Assembly (NCBI GenBank): GCA_017937845.1
Contig: JAGBCV010000052.1
Location: 1-64,000 of the forward strand
DNA: 64,000 nt
DNA from: Clostridia bacterium
GTDB taxonomy: Bacteria; Bacillota; Clostridia; Oscillospirales; CAG-272
Reading direction: 5' to 3'
Part shown: piece by piece, positions 21,074-31,121 of the stretch
How positions within the stretch are numbered: position 1 is the stretch's first letter
Layout of the letters: the number at the start of each line of letters is the position of its first letter
Made by a program: the position numbers and the translations under genes
The notes under the pieces: model-generated
Seen by the model: only the letters and a program-made list of their open reading frames with translations
Database searches by the model: none
What the model was told of the DNA's origin: nothing

Positions 21074-21238
21074 ATGAAGAAAAATATGCTGAAAAAATGG
21101 TTTATCATTGGGTTTACCGCGCTTTTTCTTTCCCTTTCCGCCATCGGTCTGACCGCCTGCACAGACGACGAGGAAACAGAAAGCTCTACGGATACGACGA
21201 TTTTCCCAGAGGTAGAATTGCCTTGGGATGAGTTTTGA
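21074..21238 (+). CDS. Small lipoprotein, 54 aa, C-terminus LPWDEF
   Basis: The start MKKNMLKKWFIIGF leads into a hydrophobic core and lipobox LTAC at residues ~25-28, so the mature lipid-anchored peptide is only ~27 residues: acidic, Ser/Thr-rich and ending VELPWDEF. AGAGGA precedes the ATG. The next gene encodes a longer lipoprotein with the same terminal LPWDEF. No family is recognised. The shared end looks like a recognition or binding tail rather than a domain (inference). Confidence 0.8.
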   Translation: MKKNMLKKWFIIGFTALFLSLSAIGLTACTDDEETESSTDTTIFPEVELPWDEF

Positions 21239-21357: not shown

Positions 21358-21852
21358 ATGAAAAGCTCTCTCAAAAAACTACTGATTTTATGCTTGATTG
21401 TATCTCTTGTTGCGACGTTGACCTTTTTCTTGACCGCTTGCGACAGCAATCAACCCGCATCTGAAACCACACTTGACCCCAACAAGCCGATCGGCACTTT
21501 GGAAACAACAAGTGATTCTGTTTCGGAAACCACGACCGTCATCGAAACGACGACCGCGACACAAGGTTCTACCTATCCCCCGGCAACCGTGCCGAACATC
21601 ACAACCAACCAAACCTACGCTTCGGTTACAACGGCAGGAACCACAACCGAAACCACCCCTGCGCCCACAACGACCAAGTATTACCCCGTTTACACAACAC
21701 GTTATCCGCTTTACCCTGTCTTTACGACGACAAGAGCAACAACGATTGCAACGACCACCGTGGTAACGACAACGGAAACCACCACAGAGGAAACAACGAC
21801 AGCAGAAACCACCACGAAAAACGAAATCGATCTTCCGTGGGATGAATTTTAA
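21358..21852 (+). CDS. Thr-rich lipoprotein, 164 aa, C-terminus LPWDEF
   Basis: The lipoprotein signal ends FFLTAC (Cys28). The rest is low complexity: Thr ~40%, with TTTE/ETTT runs, a Tyr/Pro patch (KYYPVYTTRYPLYPVF) and the end EIDLPWDEF. There is no globular domain; it probably spans the wall as an O-glycosylatable stalk that displays its C-terminus. AAAAGGA lies ~15 bases before ATG, unusually far. It has its own promoter and terminator. The shared LPWDEF end with the preceding gene argues that the tail, not the stalk, is functional (inference). Confidence 0.85.
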   Translation: MKSSLKKLLILCLIVSLVATLTFFLTACDSNQPASETTLDPNKPIGTLETTSDSVSETTTVIETTTATQGSTYPPATVPNITTNQTYASVTTAGTTTETTPAPTTTKYYPVYTTRYPLYPVFTTTRATTIATTTVVTTTETTTEETTTAETTTKNEIDLPWDEF

Positions 21853-21969: not shown

Positions 21970-21997
21970 TTGATTTTTTTGACATTTATGATATAAT
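21970..21997 (+). promoter_or_regulatory. Promoter of peptide 1 (TTGATT-16-TATAAT form)
   Basis: TTGATT (21970-21975), 16 bp, TATAAT (21992-21997), TATGn extended -10 and AAAAAT downstream. Confidence 0.78.
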
Positions 21998-22046: not shown

Positions 22047-22217
22047 ATGAACAATAGAGAAATTTTTGAAGTAGTTGAAATCGAAGTTATCGCTTTCGAT
22101 GCAGAAGATATTATTAGAACAAGCATTGGCACTGGCATTGGTTCTGATACGCCTGGTAACTTTGGCACAAACCAAGCTAGCGAAGAATGGTCTTTGGAAG
22201 CTCTTCTTAACCGCTAA
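22047..22217 (+). CDS. Small peptide, 56 aa, putative RiPP-like precursor (peptide 1)
   Basis: It starts MNNREIFEVVEIEVIAFD and then AEDIIRTS, followed by a Gly-rich stretch IGTGIGSDTPGNFGTN and an acidic helix to the end. There is no signal peptide. AAAGGAAG lies ~8 bases before ATG. Residues 12-26 align with the 54-aa peptide at 25867 through the pattern IE-[VI]-I-x-F-[DE]-x-x-D-x-I-x-TS, which looks like a leader, with divergent residues after TS as the possible core. It stands alone between its own promoter and a hairpin, with no modifying gene next to it; the nearest candidates are at 26.1-28.6 kb. Confidence 0.8.
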   Translation: MNNREIFEVVEIEVIAFDAEDIIRTSIGTGIGSDTPGNFGTNQASEEWSLEALLNR

Positions 22218-22330: not shown

Positions 22331-25300
22331 TTAGGAGTTGGACTCTGTATAGGGATAAGGTCTCGCATACCATGCACTTTCATATTCAACGATTTCAAAA
22401 TCAAAGAAAATACGAATCAAAGGATTGAAAATCGAGAGAAGTCGTGCCAAAGAATCAGAGATATTCAATTTAACATAGCCTCTGGGAATGCCAGACGCAC
22501 CTGTTTGATTATCAGATTCATTCTCGATCTTATCCCAAACATCTGCATCAAAGATGTTGTCAGTATCCAAAATGATGCCACCTGTTGTGCCATCGCCAAC
22601 GGAAGTGTCAATGCCTTGATACGACTTCGCAGCATAGTAATAGTCCCAAAGAGCTTTAATGGCTGGTTCACGTCTATCCTCGCATTCCAACAAACTTGCC
22701 ACAAAATGTTCCATATTGTACGTAACAGAAGTAAAATCTTCGCTGTTTTTAGGATTATATACCTTGAAAACATATTTTTGTTCATATTCTGTTACCGACA
22801 TAGGATCCGATACAGCCATGAAATAATTTCCGGAAGTACCATAGGGTTCTTTCTTCAAATCGGCAATCGTATACTTTTTAGGATTCGCAAGATCAGCAGA
22901 TTTCATAATTTCAACAACCACCAAGTCATCGGCATAGTTGTCAATCTTATCAATATACAAAATCAATCCCAGCGCATTTGCGCTACCAAATCTAACCAAC
23001 GTGTTACTTGCATAGATAGTGTCTACTTTTTTATCAAAATTCGTAGTAATATTTGAGTTGGGTTTAGTGTTCTCCTGATTCCAAAAGCTTGTCGGTGCAA
23101 AGCCCTTTTCTGTCAAAACCGCATTTACAAGTTTAAGATTAGAAATATCCTCACTAAATTCTTTTTGTCTATAAATCTGATACTGCGCGCCATATTCAAG
23201 AACATTACAAATAAGCGTTACAAATTTATTGTAAGCATCGTCACTGGTAAAGCCCAATTCTTCCTTTGTTCTGTTCAACTGACGTGTGCAGTAATCCAAA
23301 ACGCTATAATCACGTTTTTCATAAACTTTAATCGGGGTAACACCTTCAGTATTCCACTTTTTTTCGGTTTCATTCCATTCAGGAAGGGCGTATTCTGCCG
23401 TGAAAATTACTTCAAAGTTATCACCAAGATAATGAGGCTCAATACCTGTAAGTGTAAATTCGTAATAAACCTCTTTTGTTTCGTTGTTAGTTTGGAAGCC
23501 AGTCATTGTGTATTTATCCTCACCCAACGGGTCAGGGTTGCCCTCTTGATAAACTACCACCGATCTCTCTCTAATAATATCTTGAGACAATCCACTCGGA
23601 ACATCGACTGTAAATTTAAGATTAAAGTTTTGATTCAAAAGGAGCTGAGCTTTCTTAATGGTCTTTGCTGCGAGCGAAGTGCTTTCTGTAAACTCGGGAC
23701 CATTGTCACCTGCCATCCAATAGGTAGGTGTTGCCCAATTTTCCGTGCTAAAACCATGTGTCGCCAAGTGGTGATAACCTGCGCCGGTATCATGGTCATC
23801 GTTCTCCAAATATACAAGGTTCAGCAAATAAGCAGCCGCTTCGGATTTCAAAGCAAGTACTTTAAGACCGGAAACATGGTAGACCTTCTCGGAAGTAGAC
23901 TTGCTACCAATACCGTTACCGATGACGGTATCTTTATATTCCGTTTTATAATATCCATTCTTGCCCATTTTGCCATCTGCCTGTTCGACCTGCTCCGCAT
24001 ACATATTCGGATAATAGAAGCAGTCTCTTACTTCGCCAGCATTAAGACCAACGAGGTTACCGTTATTGTCTGTATTCTTCTCAGGAATCAGAACAGGACC
24101 GTTACTATAAGAGTTGAACACCTTACCTCTTGTCGCGTTATAACCAACAAGACCGCCGACCTTATCTGTGCCGTTTACAGTACCATGGTTATACGCCATA
24201 AAGAGTTCAAGAGCAGTAACAGTGGTTCCATCTGCATCCTTTGCAGGGTTATTTTCAGTTTCGCCAAGATAGCCCACGATACCGCCGACGTATTCTTTAC
24301 CTGTAACGGTTGCGGAACCTGCGTTTACAACCTCACGGAGATAAGAGCGAATCTGATCAAGTTGACCAACGATACCGCCAACATAGGTTGTGTTTTCAAG
24401 ACCAACAACACCATAGTTTGTGCAACCATAAATAACGGTGCTGACTGCACGACCTACGATACCGCCGACATAGGTTGTACCTTCAACATAACCTGTATGG
24501 ACTATTTTTTCTTCATCCGCCTGAGCTTCCGCTTCTGAGTCTATAATAACTTCAGTATCTGCGTGCATATTGAAGGAATCTCGAATCAAAGCATGATATG
24601 TGTAACCAACAATACCGCCAACATTGGTTTCGCCGTATACATAACCGCGGTTTACACATTCATAAATGTGGTCCTGGTTGCTAGCATCGTCAAGATCGGG
24701 AGCCTCATGATCAACATCAAACGAGCCGACAACACCGCCGACATTTTTTGTACCAATGACAACGGAGCCTGTGCCGTTTACGCAACCGATGATGTTAGAG
24801 CTATGATTGGAATTACCTACAAGCGCGCCAACATTATTTTTGCCACGAATGTACGAATCTTGGATTCTTACGCCTGCAATTTTAGCACCATCAATATAAC
24901 CAAAAAGACCTACGTTATCCGATACATCATCCGGGTTAATATAAAGACCCGAAATGGTGTAAACACCCGTAATGTTACCGTTGTCATCGTACTTAAAAGC
25001 GTTGAAAACGCCTGTGAACGGTTTAGATTCGCTATCTGTTTCAGCTTTTGTACCAATAGGAGTCCAGGGGATGATCGCTTTTTCAAAGTCAGCTTCAGTA
25101 GGCTTTCTACCTTGAGAATCAGAATCACCATTTACATTACCATCAACATCAATATTAACAATCTTTGTCTGGCCTCTATTCTTATATGCAATCTTAACAT
25201 CGCCCGAGCCTTCTGTGGATTGGAAAGTAAAGCCCTCGTTCAAATTGATATCCTTTTTCAAAAGAACCTTAGCGTCGAGCGCCGTTCCTTGTTGTACATC

Positions 25301-25543
25301 AGACACAAATTTTTTCCAAGCGTCATCAGTATCAATCACATAATTGTAATAATTCTCCCCGACCTTAGTAGGATTCAAGGACTCCAAAAGATCAAGCCCC
25401 GGGAGGTTTGTTTCTGTTGTTGTGTTTTCTTCTGTTTCTGTTGTAGTTTCCTCTGTCGTATCTGCCGCCAAAACGGGAAGCGACATGGTAAAGAGCAGTA
25501 CGCTCAATACAAGACAAAGTAAGCGTTTCAATGATTTCTTCAT
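22331..25543 (-). CDS. Large secreted surface protein with GLUG repeats
   Basis: The product has 1070 residues. The start MKKSLKRLLCLVLSVLL with signal peptidase site PVLAAD is chosen over an ATG 30 bases upstream because GGAG sits 9 bases before it. A Thr/Glu-rich linker follows, then a beta-helix-like region with about eight GLUG-type repeats (xVGGIVGY and variants, ~225-520). The C-terminal ~550 residues have no domain I recognise. GLUG repeats occur in adhesins and surface proteins. No LPxTG or membrane anchor is visible. It is convergent with peptide 1 and divergent from the peptide 2 operon. Confidence 0.88.
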   Translation of the reverse strand: MKKSLKRLLCLVLSVLLFTMSLPVLAADTTEETTTETEENTTTETNLPGLDLLESLNPTKVGENYYNYVIDTDDAWKKFVSDVQQGTALDAKVLLKKDINLNEGFTFQSTEGSGDVKIAYKNRGQTKIVNIDVDGNVNGDSDSQGRKPTEADFEKAIIPWTPIGTKAETDSESKPFTGVFNAFKYDDNGNITGVYTISGLYINPDDVSDNVGLFGYIDGAKIAGVRIQDSYIRGKNNVGALVGNSNHSSNIIGCVNGTGSVVIGTKNVGGVVGSFDVDHEAPDLDDASNQDHIYECVNRGYVYGETNVGGIVGYTYHALIRDSFNMHADTEVIIDSEAEAQADEEKIVHTGYVEGTTYVGGIVGRAVSTVIYGCTNYGVVGLENTTYVGGIVGQLDQIRSYLREVVNAGSATVTGKEYVGGIVGYLGETENNPAKDADGTTVTALELFMAYNHGTVNGTDKVGGLVGYNATRGKVFNSYSNGPVLIPEKNTDNNGNLVGLNAGEVRDCFYYPNMYAEQVEQADGKMGKNGYYKTEYKDTVIGNGIGSKSTSEKVYHVSGLKVLALKSEAAAYLLNLVYLENDDHDTGAGYHHLATHGFSTENWATPTYWMAGDNGPEFTESTSLAAKTIKKAQLLLNQNFNLKFTVDVPSGLSQDIIRERSVVVYQEGNPDPLGEDKYTMTGFQTNNETKEVYYEFTLTGIEPHYLGDNFEVIFTAEYALPEWNETEKKWNTEGVTPIKVYEKRDYSVLDYCTRQLNRTKEELGFTSDDAYNKFVTLICNVLEYGAQYQIYRQKEFSEDISNLKLVNAVLTEKGFAPTSFWNQENTKPNSNITTNFDKKVDTIYASNTLVRFGSANALGLILYIDKIDNYADDLVVVEIMKSADLANPKKYTIADLKKEPYGTSGNYFMAVSDPMSVTEYEQKYVFKVYNPKNSEDFTSVTYNMEHFVASLLECEDRREPAIKALWDYYYAAKSYQGIDTSVGDGTTGGIILDTDNIFDADVWDKIENESDNQTGASGIPRGYVKLNISDSLARLLSIFNPLIRIFFDFEIVEYESAWYARPYPYTESNS

Positions 25544-25652
25544 AAGTTTCATCTCCTTTTCATTATATATCATTTTGAAAGCTCTTTTGCATCATCGCCA
25601 TCGTCGACTTATACCAAATTCAGTCAAACGTGCTTGATGCTTTTCTAAGTTT

Positions 25653-25682
25653 ATTATATCATAATCATTCCTATTTTGTCAA
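25653..25682 (-). promoter_or_regulatory. Promoter of the GLUG surface protein
   Basis: TTGACA (25677-25682), 18 bp, TATAAT (25653-25658) with TATGA before the -10. In the 323-bp gap it is divergent from the peptide 2 promoter at 25795. Confidence 0.8.
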
Positions 25683-25794: not shown

Positions 25795-25822
25795 TTGATT
25801 TTTTATAATCCTATGCTATAAT
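25795..25822 (+). promoter_or_regulatory. Promoter of the peptide 2-kinase-PqqD operon (TTGATT-16-TATAAT form)
   Basis: TTGATT (25795-25800), 16 bp, TATAAT (25817-25822) with TATGC before the -10. TGATAGTTTTTTG lies just upstream (25772-25784) and also occurs in the leader of the 106-aa gene (20294). Confidence 0.8.
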
Positions 25823-25866
25823 ATACACAGAAACATATCATGTTTTCAGAAAGGAATCCTCCCCCA

Positions 25867-26031
25867 ATGAATCAGAAAAACACATTTGAAAATACCTTGA
25901 TTGAAATCATACATTTTGAAGAAATTGACACGATTTGCACAAGCAACATCGTACTTCCTCCCGACGAGTTCAGCTTGCGCCGTCCGTCTCTCGATTTCCT
26001 CAGCGCTCTCGAAAATGCAGAAAACGAATAA
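25867..26031 (+). CDS. Small peptide, 54 aa, putative RiPP-like precursor (peptide 2)
   Basis: It starts MNQKNTFENTLIEIIHFEEI and then DTICTS, followed by NIVLPPDEFSLRRPS and an acidic Ala/Glu end. The first half matches peptide 1 at 22047 (IE-[VI]-I-x-F-[DE]-x-x-D-x-I-x-TS). The second half contains LPPDEF, close to the LPWDEF ends of the two lipoproteins at 21.1-21.8 kb. There is no signal peptide. An AGAAAGGAA site lies ~10 bases before ATG; an upstream in-frame ATG at 25840 would place that site inside the gene. It is the first gene of the operon encoding a kinase, a PqqD-like protein and a peptidase/nucleotidyltransferase, and is therefore the likely substrate (inference). Confidence 0.8.
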   Translation: MNQKNTFENTLIEIIHFEEIDTICTSNIVLPPDEFSLRRPSLDFLSALENAENE

Positions 26032-26035
26032 AGCC

Positions 26036-26062
26036 TATCCCTGCCCCAAAAAGGCAGGGATA
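26036..26062 (+). promoter_or_regulatory. Read-through stem-loop after peptide 2
   Basis: TATCCCTGCC and GGCAGGGATA form a perfect 10-bp stem with a 7-base loop but no T-run. It lies right after the peptide stop and 33 bp before the kinase gene. Such hairpins often give more precursor than enzyme mRNA in RiPP operons. Confidence 0.65.
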
Positions 26063-26094
26063 ACTTGAATATACACGAAGTGAGGTGAAACCCC

Positions 26095-26811
26095 ATGTAT
26101 CGCAACACCTATCGATTTGCAGAAATTCCGTTTGAAGCTGTCTACGAATCCGAATATATCACAAGACAGTGTGCGGAATATTTGACCGACGAAGAACCGC
26201 AATTTTTCATCACGCTCACCAAAGAGGACGTGGAAAAAGAGCATAGCTTTTTGGAAATGCAAAAATTTCCCTACGGCTATTTGGAATCCCTTGCCCTTTA
26301 CCGCAAATTTTGCGAAAAGGTCGCATCACAAAAAATTATTTTATTTCATAGTTCCGCGATCGAAGTAGACGGAAAAGCGTATCTTTTCACAGCGCCCTCG
26401 GGAACGGGAAAAAGCACGCATACGCGCCTTTGGCGTGAAATGCTCGGAGAAAAAGCCATCATGGTCAATGACGATAAACCGCTTTTGAAGATCGAAAACG
26501 GAAAAGTCACGGTTTTCGGTACACCTTACGACGGCAAAGAACATCTCAGCACCAATAAATCCGCACCCGTGGCAGGGATCTGCTTCCTTTCGCAGGCAAA
26601 GGAAAATAAGATCGAGCGTATTCCCATGAAAAACGCTCTGCCAAAGCTCCTTTCTCAGACCTACCGCCCCTATGACAACGCCACGTTCAAGGATATTTTA
26701 AGTCTTGTCGTTTCCCTCTCGGCAGCCGTCCCTGTTTGGCATTTGGCTTGTAACATTTCCGAAGAAGCGGCAAAATTATCTTACGAAACCATGAAAGAAG
26801 GAACAACATGA
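26095..26811 (+). CDS. HprK-like Ser/Thr kinase domain protein
   Basis: This 238-residue protein resembles the HPr kinase C-terminal fold. The Walker A is APSGTGKST (100-108). VNDDKP (124-129) is a Walker B-like segment. GTPYDGKEHLSTN (142-154) resembles the GTPW.GK..L.TN motif of HprK-related proteins in lasso-peptide and PqqD-linked clusters. It lacks the HprK N-terminal domain, so regulating HPr is unlikely. In lasso systems such kinases phosphorylate the precursor (established family knowledge); here the target is probably peptide 2 and relatives. ATG follows GAGGTG at 7 bases. It overlaps the next gene by 4 bases (ATGA). Confidence 0.85.
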   Translation: MYRNTYRFAEIPFEAVYESEYITRQCAEYLTDEEPQFFITLTKEDVEKEHSFLEMQKFPYGYLESLALYRKFCEKVASQKIILFHSSAIEVDGKAYLFTAPSGTGKSTHTRLWREMLGEKAIMVNDDKPLLKIENGKVTVFGTPYDGKEHLSTNKSAPVAGICFLSQAKENKIERIPMKNALPKLLSQTYRPYDNATFKDILSLVVSLSAAVPVWHLACNISEEAAKLSYETMKEGTT

Positions 26812-27062
26812 AGCTCAAAGACGTCATCATCACCGAAGCCAACGGCGATTATATCGCCGTCACCGCGGACGGCACGTTCAACGGCATGATCCGCATGAAT
26901 CGCACCGCCGCTTTTATTGCAGAAGAACTCAAGGAAGAAAAAACGCTCGAACAGCTCATCTCCGCCGTTTGCAAAAAATACGACGTTGCCGAGGAGATCG
27001 CAAAGCAGAACATTTTGAACGTCATCAAGCAGTTTGACAGCGTGGGATTGATCGAAAAATGA
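26808..27062 (+). CDS. PqqD-like peptide-binding (RRE) protein
   Basis: This 84-residue protein has the PqqD pattern: N-terminal beta strands with AVTADGTFNGMIRMNRTAAFI, then a helical wing with LEQLISAVCKKYDV and a final helix ending DSVGLIEK. PqqD-type RiPP recognition elements bind leader peptides and deliver them to modifying enzymes. It overlaps the kinase gene and the following gene by ATGA, so all three are translationally coupled. It supports the view that this operon modifies a ribosomal peptide. There is no radical SAM or YcaO partner in the window. Confidence 0.85.
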   Translation: MKLKDVIITEANGDYIAVTADGTFNGMIRMNRTAAFIAEELKEEKTLEQLISAVCKKYDVAEEIAKQNILNVIKQFDSVGLIEK

Positions 27063-28573
27063 ATGAAAAGCTGACCATCGAGCAAACGCTCGACAAATAC
27101 GGATTCATCATTCATAAGGTACAGGGAACCAGTATGCTCCCTCTTTTGAATGAAGATACCGATCTTGTCCGTCTTGTCCCCGTCAAGGGCAAGCTCAAAA
27201 AATACGACCTGCCTCTTTACCGCTCCCCGCAGGGTACGCATTATATCCTGCATCGCATCTTAGAGGTCAAAAAAAATTATTATCTCATTTGCGGAGATAA
27301 TAATACGTTTTATGAAAAAGTTCCTTTTGACCGCGTCGTCGCCGTCGCAGAGGGCTTTTATAAGGACGGCAAATACGTCACCTGCGATGACCCCGAATAT
27401 TTGAAATATGTGGAAAAGCGTTGCGAAGGCTCCGTCAAAAACCGCGAGGTATACAAAAAGCCCATTCGCATTTCCGCAGAGCAACGCTTGCTCCTTGATA
27501 TGCTCCGCCATGCCGTTTTGGATATTCCCTATACGTCCAAGCCCGAAAATATCAACTGGAAGCTCTTTTTCGTGCTCGCGCAAAAGCAAGAGATCGCCGC
27601 GATGCTGTATCCTTACGTCAAAAACACCGATTGCCCGAAAGAGCTTCTGATTCGTTGGAAGCAAGTCGCGGATATGGCGCTCAGAAAAGAGATCCTTTTC
27701 GACGCCGAACGCAAAGCGATCTTCGCGGAATTTGAAAAAGAGAAAATCAAATATCTCCCTCTCAAGGGGATCATCATCAAGGAATTTTATCCGCATAAGG
27801 GAATGAGGCAGTTCACCGATAATGACATTCTGTTCGATACTGACCGCAGAAACGATTTGATTGCCATTATGAAAGCGCGAAATTATGAATTTGAATCCGG
27901 CGCGACGCACGATGTTTTTACCAAAAAGCCCGTCTATGAATTTGAATTTCATAAAATGCTTTTCGTTCGAGATAACCCTCTATATAAGCATTTTTCCGAT
28001 GTTTGGGAAAACGCGACACAAGAAAGCGAAACTTCTTTTGCATATCATATGAAGCATGAGGATTTTTATTGCTACACCATCGCCCACGCATACAAGCATT
28101 TTTCAAACGGCGGTATTGGCGCAAGATTCCTTGCGGATCTCTTTTTGATGCATCGCGCATGGAAAGATTCCCTTGACTTGGATGCCATCCAAAAAAAGCT
28201 CACGAAGGCAAAATTGATCGATTTTTATAACATGGCAGCAAACTGCGCCGTAGGCGTTTTTGACGGAAATGATGTCACAGTTTCCGACGATATGATTGCA
28301 CAATTCCTGTTCGGCGGCATGTTCGGCTCAATGGAACGCAATATTGCCAAAAAAGTAGCAGAAAAAGGTCGTCTTGGATATCTTCGCAGAAGAATCTTCA
28401 TCCCCTATGACCAAATGCGCTCCATATATCCCATTTTGTATAAGCTCCCTATTTTGCTTCCTTTCTGTTGGCTTGCCAAGGTCTTTGGGGTATTGTTTAC
28501 CAAGGAAAAACTTGCATATTTCTTGACAGAGCTAAAACTTCTTTTCCGAAAAAACATCGTTGACGACGATTGA
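27059..28573 (+). CDS. Fusion: S26/S24-like peptidase domain + NTP_transf_5 nucleotidyltransferase
   Basis: The protein has 504 residues. Residues ~10-105 resemble a signal peptidase/LexA-type core: GTSMLP with Ser25, a YILHRIL box with His65 in the place of the usual Lys (as in SipW/ER-type S26B), and GDNN at 79-82. No membrane segment is seen, so it should act in the cytosol. Residues ~140-500 match the uncharacterised nucleotidyltransferase family NTP_transf_5: LPLKG (233-237), then MRQFTDNDILFD (249-260) with Asp254/Asp256 as likely metal ligands. In lasso-peptide clusters such transferases act together with HprK-like kinases on a phosphorylated residue. It ends the operon at a strong terminator. 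Peptide cleavage plus nucleotidyl or glycosyl transfer is inferred. Confidence 0.8.
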   Translation: MNEKLTIEQTLDKYGFIIHKVQGTSMLPLLNEDTDLVRLVPVKGKLKKYDLPLYRSPQGTHYILHRILEVKKNYYLICGDNNTFYEKVPFDRVVAVAEGFYKDGKYVTCDDPEYLKYVEKRCEGSVKNREVYKKPIRISAEQRLLLDMLRHAVLDIPYTSKPENINWKLFFVLAQKQEIAAMLYPYVKNTDCPKELLIRWKQVADMALRKEILFDAERKAIFAEFEKEKIKYLPLKGIIIKEFYPHKGMRQFTDNDILFDTDRRNDLIAIMKARNYEFESGATHDVFTKKPVYEFEFHKMLFVRDNPLYKHFSDVWENATQESETSFAYHMKHEDFYCYTIAHAYKHFSNGGIGARFLADLFLMHRAWKDSLDLDAIQKKLTKAKLIDFYNMAANCAVGVFDGNDVTVSDDMIAQFLFGGMFGSMERNIAKKVAEKGRLGYLRRRIFIPYDQMRSIYPILYKLPILLPFCWLAKVFGVLFTKEKLAYFLTELKLLFRKNIVDDD

Positions 28574-28585
28574 CCCATAACCCAA

Positions 28586-28614
28586 AAAACCGTAGCCTTT
28601 CGGCTACGGTTTTT
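28586..28614. terminator. Bidirectional terminator after the kinase/PqqD operon
   Basis: CCGTAGCC-TTTC-GGCTACGG is flanked by A5/T5 runs. It serves the plus-strand operon and the minus-strand surface protein gene. Confidence 0.9.
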
Positions 28615-28631
28615 CATTTCATAAATTCAAA

Positions 28632-30878
28632 TCAGAAGTTGTTTTTCTGCTTGCCTCTGATCATAAAGAAGTAGATCGCTGCACCGGCAACCGCGAGGGT
28701 CACGATGGTAACGATGATCGGAACAACCAAATTGGGGCTGCTTTCTTCGCCTCTGACAACGAAGATGGTATCTGCGCCAACGAGTTCAGAACCGGGGATG
28801 ATCACTTCATTGTCATCTCTTTCAAATTCGTTGACGGGCCAAAAAGCGTTGTCACGAAGAACGAGGAAGGAGATCTCATAATCTTCGAGAGTCGCATCGG
28901 TCTTGAGAACGAGATTCATGGAATCGTTCATCGGGACCTTAGTGCCATCGGAAAGAACCTTGAAGGTATAAGCCTTGTAGAAGTTCTGATGTTCTCTGTA
29001 ATATGCTTCTGTCTGCATATCCGGAACGCCGATCTCAAATGCGTAATTCTTGCTTGCTTCCGTACCGGTAACGACGAGCGCGCCGCCAACGGAAGAGTAT
29101 GTCTTTTCAATGCCGTCCTTTACGGTCTTGGTGGATTCCTTGTAGCCGCAAACGCCGCAGGTCTTGGTCGTAACCTTGCCTTCGGTGATGGCTTCACCCA
29201 TCACGTGACCTGTGCAAGCGTCCTTTTCGGTTTCAACGGTATTGCAGAGCGCGCAGGTGCGTGTCTTTTCGCCGTCAGTCACACAAGTTTTGGAAACAAC
29301 GGTCTGCCATTCGGAGAACTGGTGGTTATTTGCGATAGGAGCGATCGCTCTGGTCTCAACAGCAGCGCACTTTACGCAAGTGTGTGCTTCCACACCGCTT
29401 GCAACGCAGGTCGCGGGCGTTGTGGTGATCCATTCGCCATAGGTATGTGCTACGAGCGGAATGGTCTGTGTTTCAGTCTTTTTACAGAGAGCACAGGTAC
29501 GGACTTCAGTACCGAGAGATGTGCAGGAAGCGGGAACGGTGGTGATCCAACCGCCGTAGCTATGACCTGTACCGTTTACGGTTCTGGTCTCTCTTACCTT
29601 ACATCTGACACATTCACGAGCTTCCACACCGTCGCTGATGCAAGTCGCGGGGGTAACGGTCGTCCATTCGCCGTAGCTATGACCGAGCGCGGGCATCACT
29701 TCGGGAATGATCTGCTTACAAACGGTACAAGTGCTTGTCTTCATGCCGCTCGTTGTGCAGGTGGGATTGTTGGTGATGGTGGAAGAAGTGAGGGTATGAT
29801 CTGCAAGAGGAAGTTCTCTTTCTTCGATCTGCTTACAGGTAGGGCACTGATAACGTGCGGTACCCTTGGTGGTACAAGTGGAAGCCTTCAAAACGGAAAG
29901 CATGGTGTATGCGTTCGCGTCGTGAGGACACTGGTTGGTTGCGACCTCGCGGGTGTTGCAGACCTTACAGATGTAGTAATATACGCCGTTTTCAAGGATT
30001 CTTTCGCCAAAGGTATGGTCAAGCTTCGGGATAGAACCGCTGATAAGGGATTCGCAATCCTTGCACTTGAAGCAGCCGCTTCCGTAAGAATAACAGGTAG
30101 GCGCCACGTAAGGATAGAGATTCTGATTGAAGGGCTTAGAGTAATCGAGGTCGTGCTGTGTGGGAAGGATCGGTTCGGTGTCGAGAACGTAGTTACAAAC
30201 TGTGCAGTAACGTTCCTTAACGCCGGAGGTCAAGCAAGTTGCTTCCTTAGCAACGCGGTAGCTTGTGTTCGCGTGGTTACAGATATAGATGCTGTATGTC
30301 GAATAGCTGGGGTCAAAGCCTACGGAAGAGTTCTGGTCGGTAACGACGGTACCGCTCACGTAGACCTGTGCCTGACGGAGCCAAGAGTATGCGTATGCGG
30401 ATTTGGTATCCACGGGATAACGGATCTCAACGTAAGCATACTGAGAGAAGGTCGCGTCGCCTGTGGTCTGAATGGTGAACTGCACCTCGGAGGTTGCCGT
30501 GGTGCTGGGGGTCGAGCTGGAAGTGCTTACGGTAGAGCAAGTAACGGCGAGCTGACCGAAAACGCTGCCGCCGACAACGGTAGGCTTACCGAGCGCGAGT
30601 GTATAAGGAGCCGTTACCTTCAAAACGCCGTATTTACCCTTTGCGACCGATTCGGAATCGATAACGAGGGTGAGGGTCAGGGTTCCTGTCAATTCATTGA
30701 AGGTATAGCTTGTCTGCTTTTGATTGATGTAAAGATATTCGGGAATGATAGGTTCGTCGTCTTCGTCCACAGCGTGAACAACGTGGTTATGCGCATCGGA
30801 GATATCAGCAAAGCCGTATGTACCGAAGCACGCAACGCAAAGCGCAAACGCCATCAAAAACGCCACAAATTTTTTCAT
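28632..30878 (-). CDS. Secreted, membrane-anchored protein with repeated Cys-pair modules
   Basis: The product has 748 residues. The start MKKFVAFLMAFALCVACFG is set by GGAGG 5 bases upstream (an upstream in-frame ATG lies before that site). After the signal peptide comes an Ig/cohesin-like beta domain (~40-185). About eight repeats of ~45 residues follow, built as ATC...G...R-x-C-x-x-C-x-x-x-E-T with GHSYGEW spacers, then a stalk domain and a C-terminal transmembrane helix (VPIIVTIVTLAVAGAAIYFF) with a KQKNNF tail. These repeats are common in Clostridia surface proteins; their function is unknown. The four-Cys arrangement suggests zinc or disulfide bonds. Confidence 0.85.
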   Translation of the reverse strand: MKKFVAFLMAFALCVACFGTYGFADISDAHNHVVHAVDEDDEPIIPEYLYINQKQTSYTFNELTGTLTLTLVIDSESVAKGKYGVLKVTAPYTLALGKPTVVGGSVFGQLAVTCSTVSTSSSTPSTTATSEVQFTIQTTGDATFSQYAYVEIRYPVDTKSAYAYSWLRQAQVYVSGTVVTDQNSSVGFDPSYSTYSIYICNHANTSYRVAKEATCLTSGVKERYCTVCNYVLDTEPILPTQHDLDYSKPFNQNLYPYVAPTCYSYGSGCFKCKDCESLISGSIPKLDHTFGERILENGVYYYICKVCNTREVATNQCPHDANAYTMLSVLKASTCTTKGTARYQCPTCKQIEERELPLADHTLTSSTITNNPTCTTSGMKTSTCTVCKQIIPEVMPALGHSYGEWTTVTPATCISDGVEARECVRCKVRETRTVNGTGHSYGGWITTVPASCTSLGTEVRTCALCKKTETQTIPLVAHTYGEWITTTPATCVASGVEAHTCVKCAAVETRAIAPIANNHQFSEWQTVVSKTCVTDGEKTRTCALCNTVETEKDACTGHVMGEAITEGKVTTKTCGVCGYKESTKTVKDGIEKTYSSVGGALVVTGTEASKNYAFEIGVPDMQTEAYYREHQNFYKAYTFKVLSDGTKVPMNDSMNLVLKTDATLEDYEISFLVLRDNAFWPVNEFERDDNEVIIPGSELVGADTIFVVRGEESSPNLVVPIIVTIVTLAVAGAAIYFFMIRGKQKNNF

Positions 30879-30901
30879 AAATTCCTCCGTTTTCATATTG
30901 A

Positions 30902-31121
30902 TGCGGAAATACCGCACATTTTTTGGGGAGCTGTTTCGCCTGCCGAAAGTATTACCTCACGGAAAACGCCTATGCACCGGTCTCCCGTTTTCCGGAAGCG
31001 AAGGCAAGCTTTCAGCGTCAAAAGCAGAGCAAGGACGAAAGCCATTGCAAATGCCTTTGGCAAAAACTTTCATTTGAAAAGCAAAAAGTTCCGAATCATC
31101 TCATATTCGGAAAACAGTCCA
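30902..31121 (-). ncRNA. Compact structured region, candidate RNA or leader of unknown class
   Basis: From the promoter at 31128-31155 this ~240-nt region would be the leader of the Cys-pair surface protein or an independent RNA. Visible pairings: TTCCGAA/TTCGGAA (31090-31113), CGGAAAACG/CGTTTTCCG (30960-30992), GGGAG/CTCCC crossing that stem (pseudoknot-like), TTCGC/GCGAA around it, and TGCGG/CCGCA at the end. I do not recognise the class with certainty; large Firmicutes RNAs such as raiA should be tested. One frame also holds a signal-peptide-like run (FAMAFVLALLLTLKAC), so a decayed small gene is an alternative. Confidence 0.4.

Follow-up and report, generated by a model that had tools for sequence, protein, structure and literature searches.

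A likely LPP-like peptide maturation operon from Clostridia, with putative precursors that are mostly unlinked and often adjoin genes for secreted proteins

The window, which is the whole 64,000-nucleotide stretch of Clostridia DNA analyzed here, carries genes for a short peptide, an HprK-like kinase, a PqqD-type RiPP recognition element (RRE), and a fusion of an S26 peptidase with an NTP_transf_5 nucleotidyltransferase, arranged as a single operon that ends in a terminator. The operon is likely to be an LPP-like RiPP maturation system that binds, phosphorylates, and cleaves short peptides encoded both in cis and in trans. The gene set and its order are shown by comparison. The elements of the operon are as follows.

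25795–25822, + strand: promoter-like sequence TTGATT-16-TATAAT with TG, upstream of the operon (consensus match only)
25867–26031, + strand: precursor peptide, lppA-like, 54 residues, with the leader NTFENTLIEIIHFEEIDTICTS followed by an acidic core
26036–26062, + strand: strong hairpin separating the precursor from the kinase gene (−17.9 kcal/mol, z −4.5)
26095–26811, + strand: HprK-like peptide kinase, lppK-like, with Walker A APSGTGKST, NDDKP, and GTPYDGK
26808–27062, + strand: PqqD-type RRE, lppB-like, with N68 in place of LppB D70
27059–28573, + strand: fusion of an S26 signal-peptidase-like leader peptidase (lppS-like; S25, H65, D80) and an NTP_transf_5 nucleotidyltransferase (lppN-like, residues 164–400)
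28585–28614, + strand: terminator hairpin (z −8.4)

The peptide gene has an ATG start and an AAGG-type ribosome site, and ATGA overlaps join the kinase to the PqqD gene at 26808 and the PqqD gene to the fusion at 27059; the hairpin between precursor and kinase is inferred to act as an attenuator or mRNA stabilizer. The original prediction, made from sequence alone, of a short peptide gene, a stem-loop, three genes overlapping by ATGA, and one terminator held for every element, positions included, as did its identification of a kinase with APSGTGKST, a PqqD-like protein, and a peptidase/nucleotidyltransferase fusion, which rests on profile matches and a model of the kinase. The PqqD gene product matches PF05402 (2e-12) and residues 164–400 of the fusion match PF14907 (8e-42). 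Residues 17–94 of the fusion show similarity to archaeal signal peptidase I (TIGR02228) at 2.5e-4, which is under the cut-off; the best solved matches of the S26 part are SEC11-type signal peptidases, and Ser25, His65, and Asp80 do not vary across 17 sequences. The kinase has no significant match in Pfam; its structure model (pLDDT 95.5) resembles HPr kinase/phosphatase (HprK/P) and PEP carboxykinase in a fold search. Searches by phmmer with the kinase or the RRE alone returned no reliable solved relative, and profiles and the fold search were required; a search of Rfam gave no match.

The kinase and PqqD proteins are weakly similar to those of the HPr-rel-A (TIGR04352/04353) and SynChlorMet (TIGR04248/04249) systems. 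Assignment to HPr-rel-A was rejected, the kinase scoring 20.7 bits against a cut-off of 200 for TIGR04352 and the PqqD protein 15.6 against 35 for TIGR04353, and assignment to SynChlorMet was rejected with matches far under the curated cut-offs. Convergent with the operon, at 28632–30917 on the − strand, is a gene for a 761-residue secreted protein with repeated Cys-pair motifs, a C-terminal transmembrane segment followed by a basic tail, and no Pfam match.

A kinase-centered, RRE-guided RiPP-like system without cyclization had been proposed for this locus, and this proposal is supported by a gene-for-gene fit to the linear polyphosphorylated peptides (LPP), published in May 2026 for the lppAKBSDN cluster of Paenibacillus alginolyticus. 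In that system LppB presents the leader, LppK phosphorylates one core Ser several times over, cleavage by LppS is LppB-dependent, and LppN, an NTP_transf_5 protein, was inactive in the host tested (PMC13381572). Both systems bring together a precursor, an HprK-like kinase, a discrete RRE, an S26 peptidase, and an NTP transferase, with no cyclase; the order A-K-B-S-(D)-N is found in the window and most relatives, although D is not adjacent in the window. Both peptidases are archaeal/ER-type Ser-His-Asp enzymes (S25/H65/D80 in the window, S29/H68/D93 in LppS), and both precursor types have a conserved N-terminal leader and a variable C terminus. The window differs from LPP, however, in the fusion of S26 and NTP_transf_5, in the lack of an adjacent exporter, and in a Phe-type leader combined with an RRE Asn. 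The LPP leader YxxPxVLxHQxIxFETxxS is not matched; only the Y/FxxP-hydrophobic segment agrees, together with a Ser close to the end, which in the window family lies one residue farther from the Tyr. LPP clusters contain 1–3 precursors, whereas the window system has one in its cluster and most are unlinked, and its leader consensus, which differs from that of LPP, is almost wholly confined to one order. Because the leader consensus and the in-cluster precursor rule are not met and the RRE clade is unplaced, the system is described as an LPP-like variant and not as a full member; it probably works in the LPP manner, but its chemistry is inferred. Beyond the LPP paper, the literature searched contained no account of this variant, nor of the pairing of peptides with secreted proteins that is described below, and such a pairing is not reported for LPP.

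An alternative is that the operon belongs to a phosphorylated lasso peptide system of the paeninodin or pseudomycoidin type whose cyclase is encoded elsewhere in the genome. In support of this, families of HprK-like kinase, PqqD-type RRE, and NTP transferase that act on a precursor are common to both (PMC13381572; PMC7533575). However, the window operon has neither a macrolactam cyclase nor a B2 cysteine peptidase, and neither recurs when the genes surrounding the kinase loci are clustered (a result that covers those loci only); an S26 peptidase stands in the place of B2, the leader aromatic is mostly Tyr or Phe and not Trp, and the cores are linear and acidic without conserved ring-forming spacing. 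The lasso reading is accordingly regarded as very unlikely.

A second member of the precursor family, overlooked in the original prediction together with four unlinked copies in the genome, is present in the window.

21970–21997, + strand: promoter-like sequence TTGATT-16-TATAAT (TG-extended), ahead of the first precursor gene (consensus match only)
22047–22217, + strand: second precursor-like peptide, 56 residues, MNNREIFEVVEIEVIAFDAEDIIRTS..., with a leader as in the peptide at 25867

Searched against its own genome, the peptide at 22047–22217 retrieved three more on other contigs, and a profile search brought the total to six leader peptides, two in the window and four unlinked to the operon. 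A second-round leader profile gave 113 matches, spread over 57 of the 146 family genomes. A single genome may hold up to about 10 precursors. Comparison of about 80 extracted peptides shows a leader family with a 24-residue motif in one frame, having conserved aromatic, Glu, and hydrophobic positions, and the consensus [YFW]xx[PA]x[IVM]E[IV][IV]x[FL]xxxD[IV][IL]x[TAS]S (short form [YFW]xxPxIEIIxFxxxDIIxTS). The aromatic residue is Tyr in 57 peptides, Phe in 19, and Trp in 5, the Asp is nearly invariant (82/83), and the terminal Ser is present in all 59 peptides that have this column aligned; the sequence beyond the Ser is variable, with a median of 17 residues and a mean net charge of about −4. 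Since the precursors mostly lie apart from the enzyme genes and belong to no family described so far, they escape notice. It might be argued that these ORFs, which are short and have no annotation or family match, are untranslated and that their similarity is incidental or regulatory. This can be almost entirely discounted: the motif recurs in one frame in about 80 peptides, nearly all of which have an ATG start preceded by a good ribosome site, and the co-occurrence and RRE covariation described below operate at the amino acid level.

Upstream of the first precursor are two small lipoprotein-like ORFs of 54 and 164 residues (21074–21238 and 21358–21852, both +), which share an acidic C terminus, LPWDEF, to be compared with PPDEF in the precursor at 25867. 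At one locus (L109, genome G064), leaders are found on unusually long precursors of 124–132 residues, at least two of them side by side.

Comparison of genomes shows that leader and kinase co-occur. A kinase is present in 57/57 leader-bearing genomes of the family and in 48/52 of the order; conversely, leaders occur in 57 of 90 kinase-bearing family genomes as opposed to none of 56 kinase-free ones (p 3e-17) and, in the order, in 48 of 86 as opposed to 4 of 209 (p 1e-26). It should be noted that these p values are inflated by the relatedness of the genomes. Lack of conserved co-occurrence with such small peptides would have refuted the original prediction, and on this check it stands. In 33 of the 90 kinase-bearing family genomes there is no leader match, with divergent peptides present in some, and the four leader-bearing genomes of the order without a kinase match are 75–91% complete. 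The RRE is present in every leader-bearing genome of the family and an S26 match in all but one, a few of these being weak. At the phylum level, only one sampled genome beyond the order has a leader at E ≤ 1e-4. Kinase and leader are gained or lost together within genera; three species of the window's own genus (G026, G088, and G132) lack the kinase, the RRE, S26, and leaders, so that the system has a patchy distribution, as though it were acquired or lost in one piece.

The occurrence of K-B-S-(N) operons in dozens of genomes places the gene grouping far beyond chance; the order is KIN-RRE-S26 at 17 loci and KIN-RRE-S26-NTP5 at 9. The S26/NTP_transf_5 fusion is rare, having been observed only in the window genome and G048, and elsewhere the two are separate neighbors or the transferase is missing. 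An ABC exporter lies among or beside the operon genes in some relatives (L202, L203, and L205). Twenty-five leaders lie no more than 5 kb from a kinase; all but one of these are on the kinase strand and 22 are upstream, while 6 others are on the same contig more than 5 kb away and 111 are on another contig. Many assemblies are fragmented, so that "other contig" exaggerates the distance in some genomes, but dispersal is seen to be genuine on the large contigs of G000, G085, and G382.

The best evidence that the RRE binds the leaders directly is covariation between the two. In the crystal structure, LppB D70 hydrogen-bonds Tyr-16 of the leader (PMC13381572). The RRE profile matches TbiB1, TfuB1, PbaB1, and LppB, with a higher score for TbiB1 (44 bits) than for LppB (28 bits), although these are profile scores without a reference tree. 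Residue 68 of the window RRE, an Asn, aligns with LppB D70 and with an Asp of TbiB1 and TfuB1, and all six leaders of the window genome have Phe at the Tyr position. Among 1658 leader-RRE column pairs, that of RRE residue 68 with leader position 5 ranked first: across 40 genomes, Asp68 is found in 0/8 genomes with Phe-only leaders and 28/32 others (p 6e-6), as compared with p 0.006 for the next-best RRE column. About six independent switches are seen on an RRE tree built without column 68. Departures from this pattern occur in G037 and G140, which have His, in G043, which has Gly, and in the mixed genome G057, which has Ala. The covariation shown by this comparison therefore supports direct binding of leaders by the RRE, including unlinked leaders in trans, in the absence of binding data. 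The predicted recognition switch, in which Tyr goes with Asp and Phe with its absence, is represented by dozens of naturally occurring leader/RRE pairs.

In the mechanism proposed from these comparisons, the PqqD-type protein would bind the common leader as an extra β-strand, with the leader aromatic residue in a pocket, and the HprK-like kinase would phosphorylate the near-invariant Ser that closes the conserved motif. The NTP_transf_5 domain would probably attach another group to this phosphate; the NTP transferase of pseudomycoidin is associated with glycosylation (PMC7533575), and a sugar on the phosphate is therefore possible. The S26 domain would remove the leader near the motif Ser, and the acidic core would be exported by the ABC exporter that is adjacent in some relatives. 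One operon would serve precursors in cis and in trans. The original prediction that the peptide is phosphorylated, modified on the phosphate, and cleaved thus remains inferred, as do the phosphorylation site, the cleavage point, and export, there being no mass-shift, binding, or cleavage data. Prochlorosins are a precedent in which one lanthionine synthetase acts on many unlinked precursors; they share with the window system a single maturation enzyme set with many precursors in trans, but they differ in chemistry and enzymes, and it is the window-type precursors that show a link with secreted proteins.

The original prediction also missed that the majority of precursors are encoded away from the operon and adjoin secreted proteins. 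In the window such a protein is encoded between the two precursors.

22331–25573, − strand: secreted 1080-residue protein with a GLUG motif and a tandem partner domain, on the strand opposite to the precursors (signal peptide by eye)
22616–23059, − strand: tandem domain copy 2, residues 839–986 of this protein (E 4e-11)
23168–23653, − strand: tandem domain copy 1, residues 641–802 (E 1e-19)
25653–25682, − strand: perfect promoter-like sequence TTGACA-18-TATAAT, divergent, upstream of the gene for this protein (consensus match only)

For 45 of 59 scattered leaders, the immediate same-strand neighbor encodes a large predicted secreted protein, often 13–50 bp away, and 58/89 neighbor genes are predicted to encode secreted proteins, as against 15/200 control genes from the same loci (p 3e-24), with signal peptides called by a simple home-made rule used alike on both. 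Pfam searches of these neighbors gave diverse repeats and enzymes and no common domain. A profile built from neighbor ends, however, defined a domain of about 125 residues, usually in tandem, that is found in 36/78 neighbors and 0/108 controls; the seed was drawn from neighbors, which biases this comparison in their favor, but a later genome-wide search was independent of position, and in it 40/42 domain-bearing genomes had the kinase. In domain-bearing genomes, a domain is encoded no more than 700 bp away from 30/51 leaders, and for most of these the distance is within 100–200 bp. The domain occupies the end of the protein closest to the peptide gene, the C terminus if the peptide follows and near the N terminus if it precedes. 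Some domain genes without a leader match have a divergent peptide after them, such as MKETKKVSYQAPELLVIELGDSAVVTASGGIPLPDVDWS. At some loci the kinase operon directly follows a domain gene, as at L047, with domain gene, peptide, and kinase in this order. The domain has no match in Pfam, NCBIfam, or PDB sequences; a high-confidence model of the pair (pLDDT 90.7) shows two β-rich domains, with a helical hairpin after each one. Foldseek with the whole pair returned nothing convincing, and its hits to Ig tandems (TM about 0.2, rmsd 17–20) were rejected as evidence of homology.

These associations raise the alternative that the peptides, instead of giving rise to natural products, are small partners dedicated to secreted proteins. 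The enzymes would act as in LPP, so that the two readings overlap in this respect, but the purpose would differ: the operon would mark or load peptides, as phospho- or sugar-phospho-peptides, for binding by the tandem domain of the neighbor, and they would serve to anchor it at the surface, to assist its maturation, or to time secretion. The adjacency to secreted proteins, the position of the domain at the peptide-proximal end, its closeness to leaders, and its co-occurrence with the kinase favor this reading. Against it, the domain is missing from about half of the neighbors and has no match in many kinase genomes, the domain protein of the window is on the opposite strand, and there is no direct evidence of contact. 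On balance, the partner reading is judged somewhat less likely than not. A bolder version can be entertained as a possibility, in which a central kinase-RRE-peptidase-transferase operon matures all peptides in trans, many large secreted proteins with the tandem β-sandwich/helix domain, which has had no name so far, are each encoded beside their own peptide, and the tandem domain has the mature phosphate-linked peptide as its ligand or anchor, a role inferred from gene position alone. With the LPP-like reading retained as the best explanation, the adjacency suggests, by inference, that the modified peptides act with cell-surface proteins, and the tandem domain is a new candidate for the partner that the mature peptide would have. 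No role is known for LPPs (PMC13381572), and the window variant links LPP chemistry to secreted proteins in Clostridia, several of them from rumen or gut samples.

Three further arrangements were observed. In G382 (L198–L201 and L264; assembly 81% complete), where no kinase was found, leader peptides similar to one another, about ten in number and with LPPxxWG at their ends, lie behind secreted tandem-domain proteins. Several loci of G085 (L193–L197) contain a repeated cassette of a leader peptide, a secreted protein of 325–734 residues, a protein of 413–491 residues without a Pfam match, and a lipoprotein of 1300–1900 residues. At L073, L074, L076, and L037, distant kinase homologues are found beside a radical-SAM-like gene, PqqD, and peptides such as MKKTYAKPEIFFENFKMTSSIANGS..., and constitute a related yet different RiPP-like set.
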